Part shown: one piece after another, positions 174-5,281 of the stretch | Numbering within the stretch: position 1 is the first letter of the stretch | How the letters are laid out: every line of letters starts with the position of its first letter | Source of the DNA: Nitrosomonas sp. | GTDB taxonomy: Bacteria; Pseudomonadota; Gammaproteobacteria; Burkholderiales; Nitrosomonadaceae | Assembly: GCF_022842015.1 (NCBI RefSeq) | Contig: NZ_JALHQJ010000032.1 | Span: 1-36,104, forward strand | Direction: 5' to 3' | DNA length: 36,104 nt | The notes under the pieces: generated by a model | Database searches by the model: none | What the model was told of the DNA's origin: nothing | The model's input: the letters and a program-made list of their open reading frames with translations, nothing else | Made by a program: the position numbers and the translations under genes

Positions 174-941
174 ATGTTAACAAAACAATTTAAGTCTTTT
201 ACCCATACTGCATTAGCAACTGCTTTGCTGTTGGGTCTCTCACAAAACGTATTATCGCATACTCGCCTGGAAATTCCTGCAGGAACCGAAGGGGTGAGAA
301 TTACTAACAATGTGGTGATTGGTCATAGTTGTGGAGAAACAGGTACCACTATTGCAAGTTCAGTGGTCTTTCCAGATGGTGTGGATTCAATTGTCAATGT
401 TAATGGCGCGGCTTCATCTGACACCATTGATATGCATGTTGCGAATTGGGGCAATAATTTTCAGAAAGTATTGGATACAGGCGTTTTCAAAGCAGAAGAT
501 GAAAAAAATGACGCTAACGGTAATGTCGTAGGATTTTATGTAAAAGATGGAAAAATGCCAAATCATTATAACGCTTACCTAAAATTTAGAGCCGGTGCGG
601 TTTTGATTGAACCGACTTCTTGCGCTTCAAGCGTGAAAATTGTTTTGGCCATTGCGGATATTTGCAAGGTAACACCGATATCGCGTTTTAGCGAGGAAAC
701 AGTCAATGTATGGACACCGGCGGTAGGATCCGATTATGACGGCGTTGGTACGGGTGGTTACAATTCTCCTGCAACTTATACAGTTAATCGTGATTTGGTT
801 AATAATCCGCTTCCCGAAGGTTGCTCAGAAGCAGGCGATGCGGTTGAAATCATTCCATCTGCAGCACAGATCAATCGTGATATGCCAATTGTTGTAAAAG
901 GCAAACGTGGGGAAAAAGTATACTGGCCAAAAAACCAGTAA
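174..941 (+). CDS. Exported YcnI/DUF1775-like protein, putative copper binder
   Basis: This 255-residue protein starts with a signal peptide; the best cleavage site is VLS|H after residue 28, so the mature protein would begin HTRLEIPAG. The pattern of an N-terminal His, a GHSCG segment followed by a VVFPDGV strand, and a later KMPNHYNAYLKF segment resembles the YcnI (DUF1775) family. Members of that family bind Cu(II) at the surface through the mature N-terminal histidine (a mono-histidine brace). Four later cysteines could form disulfides. An AAAGGGG ribosome site precedes the ATG. It is the first of four co-directional genes for exported proteins. The family call is by eye; the copper role is inference. 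Confidence 0.6.
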   Translation: MLTKQFKSFTHTALATALLLGLSQNVLSHTRLEIPAGTEGVRITNNVVIGHSCGETGTTIASSVVFPDGVDSIVNVNGAASSDTIDMHVANWGNNFQKVLDTGVFKAEDEKNDANGNVVGFYVKDGKMPNHYNAYLKFRAGAVLIEPTSCASSVKIVLAIADICKVTPISRFSEETVNVWTPAVGSDYDGVGTGGYNSPATYTVNRDLVNNPLPEGCSEAGDAVEIIPSAAQINRDMPIVVKGKRGEKVYWPKNQ

Positions 942-1032
942 GAGAATGATAGCCTTGAGCTAGCGTTTTGTTGCAAGAGGAGGTGAGCAGTGTGGGAGCT
1001 CTTGTTCATCTCCTAATTTTTGAGGAGCCATA

Positions 1033-1602
1033 ATGTTGAAATTACCAAACCATAAGAGTGGAATAGCCATGCCGCTCGTTATTTCTTTTATTGTAATGGC
1101 GGGATTTGCGAATCATGTGTTTGCAGACAATGCGAAAGCGAGATCGGCATCCAGTCTGGATTCCATCCAAATTTATTGTATGGCGGAACAGGGTAGTGTA
1201 GCGGAGCCTGATGCCAGTTTTACTGAGGCAATAGTTAACCTTGCGGGATCAAGTGATCCGGTTCAAAGAGTAAGCGCTTTGTCGCAACTGGCAGAAAAAG
1301 GGTCGATTGACGCCGGTGTTGTAGAGAAAATTCTGCAAACCGCGATTCAAGATGTCGATCCGAATGTCAGAGGGCAGGCAGTTTATGCCTTTGCACAGCA
1401 AGGTTGCGGGGATCTCTTTGTAGTGCTTGAACAAGCTTTGCAAGACACCGAGCTTTCAGTGCGATTGATGGCGTTAGATAGTTTAGGTGCTGATGAAAGA
1501 AGCGTGGCGCTACTTAAAGAAATTGTTGAAGACGAAGACGAGGCTGAAGCCATCAAAGATTTGGCCACGATGAAACTTGAATCTTTAAGCGTAAGTAATT
1601 AA
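1033..1602 (+). CDS. Exported HEAT-repeat protein
   Basis: The 189-residue product has a signal peptide, probably cleaved at VFA|DNAK (about residue 31), so the helical-repeat domain should lie in the periplasm. From about residue 70 onward there are three or four HEAT-like helix pairs with the usual signature (DPVQRVSALSQLAEKG, DPNVRGQAVYAFAQQG, ELSVRLMALDSLG). Such repeats usually form a protein-binding scaffold. A strong GAGGAG site lies 6 bases before the ATG. The gene lies between the YcnI-like gene and the duplicated His-start proteins in the same direction, so it may serve the same system. I do not recognise a named family. Confidence 0.7.
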   Translation: MLKLPNHKSGIAMPLVISFIVMAGFANHVFADNAKARSASSLDSIQIYCMAEQGSVAEPDASFTEAIVNLAGSSDPVQRVSALSQLAEKGSIDAGVVEKILQTAIQDVDPNVRGQAVYAFAQQGCGDLFVVLEQALQDTELSVRLMALDSLGADERSVALLKEIVEDEDEAEAIKDLATMKLESLSVSN

Positions 1603-1681
1603 AGCCTAGGACAGCGGCATTCAATAAGCCGCTTATGCTATCGATGGAATTGTAAGATTATTTTATTTAAAAGGATTGAAG

Positions 1682-2143
1682 ATGAAATTCTCAAATTTGA
1701 AGGGAATATTTGTTTTAGTTTTTGGATTGATGGCATTATATGCAGGCACAGCTTCGGCGCATAACCAAGCGGGCAGCTTCACTTCCGGCTTAGCGGCTGC
1801 GGTTGACTTTTATCAAGCCACTTGTTTTGACGATGGAAGTGGTGCGCCGTCCTATCTCGAAGCGCAAGTCAAGGATATGACAGCCAGCACCGCCAAAGTC
1901 AGCATACTCGCGCATAAAGGAACCAGTTGCACCACCAATCTGTGTGCGCAATTTAGTGTCGACACTACGGATAGCAACACCACCTATAGCCCTTTAGTGA
2001 CCGTAAAGCAAGGTGCAGGGGTGTATAGCATATTCGTGATGCATACCGCAGCGGGCACGGATAGTTACGATGTGGCGCTCCATTGTAAAACCGCAGCCGG
2101 TGCGCATACGGGTACCAGTGTCGTGTCAAGACAGCAGCAATAA
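1682..2143 (+). CDS. Small exported protein with predicted N-terminal His, paralogue 1
   Basis: The 153-residue product has a 26-residue signal peptide ending TASA; the mature 127-residue protein would begin HNQAGSF. Mature-chain histidines are at positions 1, 52, 95, 108 and 116, and cysteines at 22, 57, 62 and 109, enough for two disulfides. All nine are kept in paralogue 2. The sequence looks beta-rich and has no membrane segment after the signal. I chose the ATG at 1682, not a TTG two codons earlier, because AAGGA lies six bases upstream and the second copy starts at the same residue. A His at mature position 1 with other conserved His suggests a copper site like a histidine brace, but I do not recognise the family. 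Confidence 0.8.
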   Translation: MKFSNLKGIFVLVFGLMALYAGTASAHNQAGSFTSGLAAAVDFYQATCFDDGSGAPSYLEAQVKDMTASTAKVSILAHKGTSCTTNLCAQFSVDTTDSNTTYSPLVTVKQGAGVYSIFVMHTAAGTDSYDVALHCKTAAGAHTGTSVVSRQQQ

Positions 2144-2600
2144 TGCGTATCTGTTTCAATCAAATGGTTGCGGGCACTTAAAAATAAGAGCGTTACCGGG
2201 TCTGTGTTACAAATGCTCAATCCTAACCGCAAACAAAACAGACGGTAACGCTTTAATTTTGATGTTTCTATAGTAGTGCTGGCTTTTACATGTATCGTTT
2301 ACTCACAGAACAGGTGAAAGCAAACTGGGCTTCCAGCCTGAGTCCAACGTACATCAATTGTTTATCTGGAAATGGTCATTTAGCTTTACGGTATCGAATA
2401 ACCTCACACAAAGAGTAAGCACATTCTCGCGATTTGCCATCAAGGGTCGATTGGTGCTGGAACTCTACAAAATTCCGCATACAGCAAAGATAATGACATT
2501 CAATAAACTGCTCGCGGTGTTGGCAGAATTGTAAAGCTATATCAGATCATCACTCGTGTTAAAAATAGCAAAAAGAATTTTTTATTTAAGGAGCTGTATG
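2144..2600. other. Intergenic region between the two paralogues
   Basis: This 457-bp gap holds a long-stem hairpin near its start and the upstream flank of paralogue 2 at its end. A plus-strand frame is open without a stop from 2277 to 2534 (85 codons, ending GAATTGTAA) but has no convincing start codon or ribosome site. It may be a decayed 3' end of a gene carried by the duplication, or chance. I recognise nothing in its translation. Confidence 0.4.
2189..2259 (+). terminator. Long-stem hairpin, possible terminator of paralogue 1
   Basis: AGCGTTACCG at 2189-2198 pairs with CGGTAACGCT at 2243-2252, and TCTGT/ACAGA continues the stem after a small bulge. The loop is about 30 bases, which is long for an intrinsic terminator. 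A TTTAATTTT tail follows. No equivalent stem is seen after paralogue 2. Confidence 0.35.
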
Positions 2601-3062
2601 ATGAAATTCTCAAATTTGAAGGGAATGCTTGTTTTATTGTTTGTATTGATGACACTGAATGTTGTCACAGCTTCGGCGCATAATCAAGCGGGTAGTTTTA
2701 CCACTGGTTTAGCTGCTGCTGTTGACTATTATCAAGCCACTTGTTTTGACGATGGTAGTGGCGCACCGTCCTATCTCGAAGCGCAAGTTAAGGATATGAC
2801 AGCCAGTTCAGCTAAAGTGAGTGTGCTCGTACATAAAGGAACCAGTTGTACCACCAATAAGTGTGCACAATTCAGAGTCGATAGCGGGGATCGCAATACC
2901 ACTTACAGTCCCTTAGTAAAAGTTCCACAAGGTTCTGGTGTATATAGCGTATTCGTGATGCATACGGCAGCAGGCACGGATAGTTATGATGTTGCGCTCC
3001 ACTGTAAAACCTCAAGCGGCGTGCATACGGGAACCAGTGTCGTATCGAGACAACAGCAATAA
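2601..3062 (+). CDS. Small exported protein with predicted N-terminal His, paralogue 2
   Basis: This second copy also encodes 153 residues and differs from paralogue 1 at 17 of 127 mature positions. All five mature histidines and all four cysteines are conserved. The signal peptides differ at 8 of 26 positions, so the mature part is more constrained. Cleavage at TASA|HNQAG again exposes a histidine. AAGGAG ends seven bases before the ATG at 2601; an ATG one codon earlier is also possible. Relative to copy 1 this protein gains positive charge (L61K, S66R, S72R, T81K), which may tune binding or partner choice. Function unknown; extracytoplasmic copper binding is inferred. Confidence 0.8.
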   Translation: MKFSNLKGMLVLLFVLMTLNVVTASAHNQAGSFTTGLAAAVDYYQATCFDDGSGAPSYLEAQVKDMTASSAKVSVLVHKGTSCTTNKCAQFRVDSGDRNTTYSPLVKVPQGSGVYSVFVMHTAAGTDSYDVALHCKTSSGVHTGTSVVSRQQQ

Positions 3063-3263: not shown

Positions 3264-3998
3264 TTAAAACTTATATCCACGATGGAGCGCTACGATACCT
3301 GCAGTCAGATTAAAATATTCCACGCGCTCAAAGCCAACTTGTTCCATCAGTTCTTTTAATTCATTTTGCGAGGGATGCATACGAATGGATTCCGCTAAAT
3401 ATTGATAGCTTTCTGCGTCATTCGTTATCACTTTCCCCATGGTCGGCAGTAACTTGAATGAATAGGCATCGTAGGCTGGTTGCAGCGGTTTCCATATTTT
3501 GGAGAATTCCAGCACGAGAACAGTTCCACCTGGTTTTATGACACGTAGCATTTCTTTGAGCGCAATATCCTTATGGGTCATATTTCGCAAACCAAAAGCC
3601 ACACTGACGCAGTTAAAATAATTGTCAGGAAAAGGTAATTTTTCGGCATCACATTGTGCAACTGGAGTCGGCGTACCTTCATCAATTAGGCGGTCACGCC
3701 CGATGGAAAGCATGGAATTGTTAATGTCGGTTAGCCATACTTGCCCGGACTTTCCTACTTTTTGCAAAAACAATACGCTTAAATCTCCAGTGCCACCTGC
3801 AATATCCAATACCTTGTCACCGGGCTTTATTCCGCTGGCTTCAATGACAAAACGCTTCCATAACCGGTGCATTCCAACTGACATGAGATCGTTCATTAAA
3901 TTGTAGCGTTCTGCGACAGAATGAAAAACTTCAGCGACTTTGCCTGCCTTTTCATCTTCTGTAACAGTATTAAAACCAAAATGGGTTGTTTTAGTCAT
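3264..3998 (-). CDS. ubiE: Demethylmenaquinone / 2-polyprenyl-6-methoxy-1,4-benzoquinol methyltransferase
   Basis: UbiE is the SAM-dependent C-methyltransferase of ubiquinone (and menaquinone) synthesis. The 244-residue length is typical. The sequence has the family signatures: FGF and [20 protein letters not shown] near the N terminus, SAM-binding motif [13 protein letters not shown], the segment [18 protein letters not shown], and a C-terminal [11 protein letters not shown]. It is cytosolic or loosely membrane-associated. The DUF971 gene lies 54 bp upstream on the same strand, a pairing common in Betaproteobacteria, so the two are probably co-transcribed. An ammonia oxidiser needs ubiquinone to take electrons from hydroxylamine oxidation. 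Confidence 0.95.
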
Positions 3999-4052
3999 GA
4001 CATTAATTTGAATTCAATTGGATAAAGCGTATAGGTAATTGTCGAGATTCAG

Positions 4053-4463
4053 TTATTTGCAGGAATGATTAGATTTTTGAGGTTTGACTTCGTGTTCGCG
4101 GCTGGCACCGGCTGCTTCTAAGCGCTGCAAGTAACGCGGCCACATTGTATCCTGATTAAGGCCAAAGTTATACAACAGATCCCATGAATAAAGCCCAGTA
4201 TTATGGCCATCGGTGAAATTGAGTTGTATGGCATAATTACCAACAGGCTCGATTTTGCTGATATTGACCGTCTTCTTGCCGGTTTGTAGTACTTCTTGCC
4301 CCGGGCCATGACCACTCACTTCGGCGGAGGGTGAATGAACGCGCAAAAATTCACACGAGAATTGGAAGAATTTGCCATCAGAGAAAGTAATATCCAGTAT
4401 TCTGGATTGTTGATGCAACTTGATTTCTGTCGGATGCGGTGTGTTTTTGGTTAAACCGGCCAT
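4053..4463 (-). CDS. DUF971 (GBBH-like N-terminal domain) protein
   Basis: The 136-residue protein matches the DUF971 family, related to the N-terminal domain of gamma-butyrobetaine hydroxylase. Visible hallmarks are PTEIKLHQQSRILDITFSDG at the start, FSCEFLRVHSPSAEV, NFTDGHNTGLYSWDLLY and a final region with YLQRLEAAG. The Ser-Pro-Ser-Ala-Glu-Val segment is typical of the bacterial single-domain form. Its function is not established; the link with ubiE suggests a role near quinone or iron-sulfur metabolism, but that rests on gene order. The start ATG has only a weak ribosome site. Confidence 0.85.
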   Translation of the reverse strand: MAGLTKNTPHPTEIKLHQQSRILDITFSDGKFFQFSCEFLRVHSPSAEVSGHGPGQEVLQTGKKTVNISKIEPVGNYAIQLNFTDGHNTGLYSWDLLYNFGLNQDTMWPRYLQRLEAAGASREHEVKPQKSNHSCK

Positions 4464-4558
4464 GATGATTATTTAATACGATGAGTTAAAGTTAAGGGTA
4501 TGCAATGGCTCCATTGTAACAAACTGTGCAAAAAATTAATTGATGCAGGAATACAAGC

Positions 4559-5281
4559 ATGAGCGCAAAAATACTGATCGTGGAAGACGAAGCGGCTATC
4601 CGTGAGTTAATTGTTTATAATTTGCAGCAAGCTGGGTATGAAAGTATTTGCGCTGAAGATGCAGAGAAGGCAATGGCGATCATTCATGAGGCGTTGCCAG
4701 ATTTGATTTTGTTGGATTGGTTGCTGCCGAAAATGACTGGCATAGATTTTGCCCGAGTGCTGCGGCGCAATGAACGTACCCGTCTTATTCCGATTATTAT
4801 GCTGACAGCACGAACTCAGGAAGCGGATAAAGTAGCCGGTCTGGAAATAGGTGCGGATGACTACGTAACAAAGCCTTTCTCGCCGCGTGAATTGATTGCG
4901 CGAATTAATGCGGTCTTGCGTCGATTAACCCCGGAAGCTTCTGCACAAGTGGTTGAAATCCATGGATTGCGCTTGGATCCAGTCAATCATCGTGTTACAG
5001 ATGAGAATAGAGAAATTGCACTGGGGCCTACTGAGTATCGTTTGCTACATTTTATGATGTCACATACAGAACGCGTATATTCACGTAGTCAATTGTTAGA
5101 TCGAGTGTGGGGCGATCACGTATTTGTCGAAGAACGTACTGTCGATGTGCATATCCGCCGGTTGCGGAAAGCCCTGCAATGGACTGGTAAAGACAGCTGG
5201 ATACAAACTGTCAGAGGAGCGGGGTATCGGTTCTCGGCAGCTGCCGTAGGTCCCACTAATGATTCAAATAAGGAAATCTGA
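4559..5281 (+). CDS. phoB: Phosphate regulon response regulator PhoB
   Basis: This 240-residue OmpR/PhoB-type regulator has an N-terminal receiver domain (about 1-120) with acidic pocket E9-D10-E11, phosphoacceptor D53 in LILLDWLLPKM, T83 and K105 in DDYVTKPFS. A winged-helix DNA-binding domain follows (about 135-230), with LGPTEYRLLHFMM, a YSRSQLLDRVWG turn and the recognition region ERTVDVHIRRLRKAL. Phosphorylated PhoB activates phosphate-scavenging genes through Pho boxes. phoR follows after a 159-bp gap. I found no convincing Pho box in the window. The identity rests on the PhoB-like sequence and the PhoR neighbour. Confidence 0.93.
   Translation: MSAKILIVEDEAAIRELIVYNLQQAGYESICAEDAEKAMAIIHEALPDLILLDWLLPKMTGIDFARVLRRNERTRLIPIIMLTARTQEADKVAGLEIGADDYVTKPFSPRELIARINAVLRRLTPEASAQVVEIHGLRLDPVNHRVTDENREIALGPTEYRLLHFMMSHTERVYSRSQLLDRVWGDHVFVEERTVDVHIRRLRKALQWTGKDSWIQTVRGAGYRFSAAAVGPTNDSNKEI

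Follow-up and report, generated by a model that had tools for sequence, protein, structure and literature searches.

The stretch of DNA analysed here (the window: 36,104 nucleotides, contig NZ_JALHQJ010000032.1 of the Nitrosomonas sp. assembly GCF_022842015.1) carries near its start, at positions 174-3062, four complete same-strand genes in its list of open reading frames. They encode a protein of a family that we call B, a HEAT-repeat protein and two copies of a protein of a second family, A (Table 1). A first-pass annotation, made from the sequence alone, had noted that three of these four exported products should begin with histidine once the signal peptide is removed, had likened the first to YcnI/DUF1775 and had proposed an undescribed copper-handling set. 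In following this up we found the export motifs again, a conserved His1 in B, the joint retention of three histidines in A, a YcnI-like modelled fold for B, and a linkage of both families to a redox operon and to two lineages. We give roughly even odds (about 0.5) to the reading that B and A form an exported copper-handling module common to Nitrosomonas and methanotrophs and tied to a flavin/thiol redox operon.

Table 1. Features at window positions 174-3062. A slash within a motif marks the predicted signal cleavage point.
Feature	Position	Strand	Remarks
Family B, YcnI-like exported protein, 255 amino acids	174..941	+	Mature start His1 at base 258
Family B predicted signal peptide, 28 codons	174..257	+	NVLS/HTRL; crude cleavage score and invariant His column
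HEAT-repeat exported protein, 189 amino acids	1033..1602	+	Pfam HEAT_2, E 6.8e-12; predicted mature start Asp, VFA/DNAK
Family A copy 1, 153 amino acids	1682..2143	+	Mature His1 at base 1760; conserved partners His108 and His116
Family A copy 1 predicted signal peptide, 26 codons	1682..1759	+	TASA/HNQA; crude cleavage score
Decayed fragment of the HEAT gene, in the gap separating the A copies	2409..2485	+	71% identity over 80 columns to 1264-1343
Family A copy 2, 153 amino acids	2601..3062	+	Mature His1 at base 2679; 84% identical to copy 1
Family A copy 2 predicted signal peptide, 26 codons	2601..2678	+	TASA/HNQA; crude cleavage score

Cleavage sites were placed with a crude score of our own with a background threshold of 2.5, under which the site of the window B falls (2.38). 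Over the fetched 19-kb regions and the window, where some gene starts are miscalled, this score places the cut directly before a histidine in 20 of the 29 B proteins and 12 of the 23 A proteins; among signal-like neighbour proteins, taken one per cluster with A and B excluded, histidine stands at +1 in 1 of 44. The three histidine starts of the window are recovered as predictions, the HEAT-repeat protein beginning with Asp, and conservation of the histidine column is the stronger test. In B this column is invariant over the 65 members of a first alignment (65 of 66 sequences, one shortened B being dropped), with identities down to 34%, and His1 is found in 109 of 111 B sequences from separate loci, the remaining one Asp and one gap representing the two pieces of a single broken gene. 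Within the methanotroph order, which we took as Methylococcales from its share of PF04744 (amoB/pmoB), B has His1 in 30 of 30 and His23 in 29 of 30 proteins, counts that come from the best-scoring loci and are biased to typical members. Of 78 A sequences, 65 have His at position 1 and 13 have Asp, the latter being a minority among the Nitrosomonas copies, and a histidine at this position appears favoured, not obligatory. The broken B gene, at L139:1675-2467 in a Methylococcaceae metagenome-assembled genome (MAG), is split in two and is the sole B with Asp at position 1.

Residue conservation in B was read from 101 sequences, namely the window protein and 100 of the 106 that passed the filter out of 111 (two with another start motif, the two pieces of the broken gene and one caught by the duplicate/length filter were excluded). 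No Pfam or NCBIfam family was found for the window B at E up to 1, nor any related PDB sequence. Its AlphaFold model (pLDDT 95.3, pTM 0.92, first ten residues 96) has YcnI entries at the top of a VIA search, with Z scores of 10.9-11.4 and 2.8-2.9 Å over 125-126 of 127-128 residues, starting from model residue 1 (best match: Z 11.4, 2.8 Å, 126/128 residues). A Nocardia immunoglobulin-like (Ig-like) protein follows at Z 10.5, and the cohesins and integrins that come next reach no more than 7.0. Profiles of B and DUF1775 align over H1...HGC (P 4.4e-5, probability 69), and C136 and W152 are matched as well in an alignment of low stringency. His1, His23 and Trp152 are invariant in the 101 mature proteins, and E11, a candidate counterpart of the YcnI Glu, is conserved in at least 90% of them (25 of 30 among the best-scoring methanotroph-order loci). 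We read B as a diverged YcnI-like protein; the likeness proposed at the outset is borne out by the fold and, over the N-terminal part, by the profile, and because the Pfam model itself gives no match we do not file B as a DUF1775 member.

Like YcnI of B. subtilis (PDB 7mek, 7me6 and 8um6), B is exported, has a predicted N-terminal His and an Ig-like fold, and with proteobacterial DUF1775 proteins it also shares HGC and, by the low-stringency alignment, a Cys and a Trp. It differs from YcnI in being longer (227 against about 128 resolved residues), the C-terminal part of B lying outside the match, and in having gene partners that are not those of YcnI/DUF1775. The available part of one YcnI study (PMC8424229) states that mainly proteobacterial members of the family retain His and Trp, not Glu, and may use other ligands; His23 would be the obvious candidate for an alternative copper ligand in B. 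Ten DUF1775-type proteins, eight of them on plasmid records, have a predicted start His by eye, and all share HGC, a Cys and a Trp. Beside the eight plasmid genes CopC or CopD is annotated in three cases (L237, L239 and L240, the last also with pseudoazurin), and a fourth gene (L241) is itself annotated PCu(A)C. The DUF1775 model (PF07987) finds matches in 2 of 143 class genomes and none in the genome of the window. A Pfam-recognised DUF1775 protein with H1...AHGC was seen at L232:1447-2121, in a genome (G237) that holds two PF04744 genes.

Family A had been said to match no known family, and the HMM (hidden Markov model) and PDB-sequence searches agree. Neither the window proteins nor the family profile has a relative in Pfam, NCBIfam or PDB sequences, a PDB-sequence profile search returning a single flagellar protein at E 0.19, and Foldseek on the model gave nothing at E 0.001 or better. 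The candidate DUF4252, matched by 12 of 76 members with E 0.0082 at best and with the window copy falling short of the cut-off, was rejected as weak, and so were membership of DUF1775 (hhalign probability 0.09) and kinship with B (hhalign probability 0.7). The AlphaFold model (pLDDT 91.6, pTM 0.85) is a beta-sandwich of nine strands, for which VIA returns subtilisin-associated, collagen-binding, PPC and calpain sandwiches with Z up to 10.5.

The five mature histidines (1, 52, 95, 108 and 116) ascribed to A lie in both window copies, and the four cysteines (22, 57, 62 and 109) in copy 1, as stated; all five histidines had been put forward as one possible cluster. Two alignments of A were made, one of 54 of 55 sequences (one broken A dropped) and one of 76 members, which joins 74 of 78 sequences to the two window copies. 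Over these 76, His116 is invariant and His108 reaches at least 90%, while His52 and His95 are not conserved among the aligned members and position 1 is Asp in 11, all keeping His108 and His116. What stands of the proposed cluster is a set of three, His1, His108 and His116, that are retained together. In 47 methanotroph-order A sequences His1 is present in 34, which have His108 in 34/34 and His116 in 33/34, and the 13 without His1 have them in 0/13 and 1/13, respectively. Among 126 columns these two have the strongest association with His1 (Fisher p 7e-12 and 3e-9), p values that are overstated because the sequences are related, the joint loss amounting to about three parsimony events. The pattern fits one candidate site made of the N terminus, His108 and His116. 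Paralogues in L209, L214, L216 and other loci, some beside a His1 copy, replace the three histidines together (with Tyr/Asp/Ser in six), and look as if the site had been lost and the fold kept.

An N-terminal His with further conserved histidines as candidate ligands (108 and 116 in A, 23 in B) is what A and B share with histidine-brace proteins such as lytic polysaccharide monooxygenases, CopC and PmoF. A departs from them in having a PPC/collagen-binding-type sandwich as its model and Asp1 in some members. We regard B as a variant of the known YcnI-like type, and A, an uncatalogued family, may be a new brace scaffold. CorA/MopE, which like the proposed module is a surface or secreted copper protein of methanotrophs, was also considered as a relative of B. 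The copper site of CorA is given as Kyn62, His64 and His114 in the part of PMC3912023 at hand, and the homology was rejected because W-x-H is not among the invariant columns; the W(Kyn)-x-H...H site is absent from those of both B (n=101) and A (n=76).

A is linked to DUF3570. Across the 100 Nitrosomonadaceae genomes sampled, DUF3570 occurs in exactly the 53 that bear A, and all 53 have an A gene at most 3 kb away from it. Of 60 DUF3570 matches, 59 are neighboured by A, and of 99 A matches 32 are located away from DUF3570, as in the window. Among 20 Nitrosomonas-genus regions chosen for carrying A or B, 11 hold B, A, a thioredoxin-like protein, DUF3570 and ApbE together, and DUF4266, a small CXC protein in the full-form operon, was called in 6 of the 11. 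The methanotroph loci L146 and L150 have the order B-A-thioredoxin-like-DUF3570-ApbE, with DUF4266 called in L146. Operon parts were checked with Pfam on genes of L066, L073, L075 and L146, and the thioredoxin-like (TlpA-like) label denotes a Redoxin/AhpC-TSA match with CPPC or CLPC. The same four components, DUF3570, DUF4266, thioredoxin and ApbE, make up published clusters in which DUF3570 is a substrate of ApbE flavinylation (PMC8238504, as far as its available part goes), and the [ST]GA[ST] motif is shared (10 of 11 sequences here). Our DUF3570 proteins differ in length, about 900 against about 420 amino acids, and in a C-terminal half enriched in His (4.5-6.1%) and Met (5.1-6.6%) over the preceding part (1.5-2.4% and 0.6-1.5%). 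A- or B-like proteins are not mentioned in that part of the source, and no DsbD was seen among the genes scanned here.

The redox set (DUF3570, DUF4266, thioredoxin-like protein and ApbE) is absent from the window locus itself. The genome of the window has the full set on another contig (C45, locus L066), and C15, C12 and C50 hold additional copies of A or B; from this layout we regard the four window genes as a satellite copy, the redox partners of the larger system being encoded elsewhere in the genome, on other contigs. The second A copy probably arose by tandem duplication of a HEAT-A unit, since a decayed piece of the HEAT gene lies in the gap between the A genes (2144-2600); its alignment scores 35.6 bits against 23.8 for the best of 50 shuffles. 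The A copies differ by amino acid at 25 of 153 codons and are paralogues. The HEAT cluster is present in 5 of the 20 Nitrosomonas-genus regions, and similar genes occur in the methanotroph loci L139 and L155. Downstream of the locus, window positions 3264-5281 encode UbiE, a GBBH-like_N (DUF971-type) protein and a response regulator, none of which suggests copper.

Both families are found in lineages of ammonia oxidisers and of methane oxidisers. Of the 100 Nitrosomonadaceae genomes, 60 belong to the genus of the window, and every carrier is among these, 53 with A and 56 with B; the other 40, from three further genera, have neither. A seeded scan of one genome per species (84,980 species), which misses members without the seed peptide, confirmed 98 stretches; among the 78 loci listed, with 18 weaker stretches outside the list, 66 are titled Nitrosomonas, 4 are methanotroph (two Methylococcaceae MAGs, Methyloprofundus and Methylotetracoccus) and 8 are MAGs with broader titles. 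Two cultured strains, N. ureae Nm13 and N. oligotropha Nm45, carry B. The methanotroph order, sampled with 121 genomes, has B in 51, A in 49 and both in 41; DUF3570 is found in 75, including all 49 that bear A, and PF04744 in 100. The draft genome of the window (130 contigs, 99.95% complete) gives no PF04744 match and a genus mate, G003, gives three; loss of repeated, multi-copy amo operons in assembly would perhaps account for the PF04744-free draft.

Putting these results together, we propose a system whose full form would consist of B and A next to a thioredoxin-like protein, DUF4266, ApbE and a flavinylated DUF3570 whose C-terminal half is enriched in His and Met. Mature B would bind copper through the free amine and imidazole of His1 on its YcnI-like fold, perhaps helped by the invariant His23 and Trp152, and A would do so through His1, His108 and His116 on a small beta-sandwich in which Cys22 and Cys109 are also conserved. 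At the envelope, Cu(II) would be reduced to Cu(I) with electrons supplied by the thiol and flavin carriers, and B and A would ferry copper between a surface protein and the periplasm, for ammonia monooxygenase or particulate methane monooxygenase. In this scheme we infer which metal is bound and where in each protein, that it is reduced, which way it is transferred and which enzyme receives it. The more specific proposal, that A is a new scaffold (a PPC-type beta-sandwich) for a histidine-brace-like copper site and that it forms with B and flavinylated DUF3570 an undescribed copper reduction and uptake system feeding the copper monooxygenases of both guilds, is tentative and rather doubtful as a whole. 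Among the titles and opening abstracts that searches of open-licence PMC papers listed, none describes A, B or the operon in copper terms. How bacteria that have copper membrane monooxygenases acquire the metal is understood in part; if the proposal is true, two exported His-first families of both guilds would supply named genes and residues (His1/108/116 of A, His1/His23 of B), and a substrate would be offered for the DUF3570 flavinylation clusters, whose function is called uncertain in the available part of PMC8238504.

Several results weigh against a copper role for the module. The linkage to copper monooxygenases is loose: in the methanotroph order 6 of 49 A genomes and 8 of 51 B genomes (G583 counted) lack PF04744, and in a class sample of 369 genomes B is in 4 and PF04744 in 10 with 2 shared, so that 8 of 10 PF04744 genomes lack B and 2 of 4 B genomes lack PF04744. 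This partial overlap means that B goes with these lineages, but the monooxygenase does not require it and the two are not strictly coupled. For B itself, PF07987 matches 0 of 101 members at E up to 1, a PDB-sequence profile search reaches no YcnI chain up to E 10, and the Foldseek E-values put a cohesin(-dockerin) chain first (5.1e-5) and YcnI 7mek third (8.4e-5). For A, His and Asp have switched about six times on the tree at position 1, and the joint loss of the three histidines needs only about three events, one on well-supported branches. Among the selected neighbours scanned no copper gene turned up, and no copC, copD or PCuAC family. Finally, the same part of PMC8238504 mentions 25 DUF3570 clusters with VIT1, which point to iron.

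In the chief rival reading, the operon encodes a reductase of the envelope that acts on ferric iron or on several metals, and what A and B bind is iron, zinc or some other ion instead of copper. The His/Asp alternation in A would be compatible with other metals; the YcnI-like fold of B and its H1...HGC motif point to copper, and no iron transporter was found among the selected neighbours scanned, and we consider this rival unlikely. A somewhat smaller chance goes to a division of roles in which B alone is a copper protein and A a structural or docking partner, with residues conserved for folding or contact and a His start that is a by-product of AxA/H cleavage. The frequency of Asp in place of His1 suits such a partner, as does a model like protein- and Ca-associated sandwiches (collagen-binding, PPC, calpain) and unlike copper folds; it sits badly with the co-variation of His1, His108 and His116, the best of all columns compared with His1 although they are distant in sequence. 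That the His start reflects descent or chance, with no metal function in either family, we hold to be improbable: the window A copies are paralogues and a His at +1 does turn up elsewhere, as the background count indicates, but A and B are unrelated by profile and yet His1 is kept in both across Nitrosomonas and the methanotroph order, in intact copies of B without exception.

Some minor observations concern the spread of the families. No plasmid match was found for B, and 28 pattern matches on viral contigs yielded none that was confirmed. Weak B fragments at contig ends (G399:C65 and G399:C383) come from a genome of another family without PF04744 and could be a relative or contamination. In the one-contig genome G091 (C1), A and B each match with equal scores close to both ends (positions near 13 kb and 3302 kb), which perhaps reflects an unclosed circular overlap. 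Two methanotroph-order genomes show an expansion of the system: G558 has 13 DUF3570 and 11 A matches, and G564 has 9 and 4.

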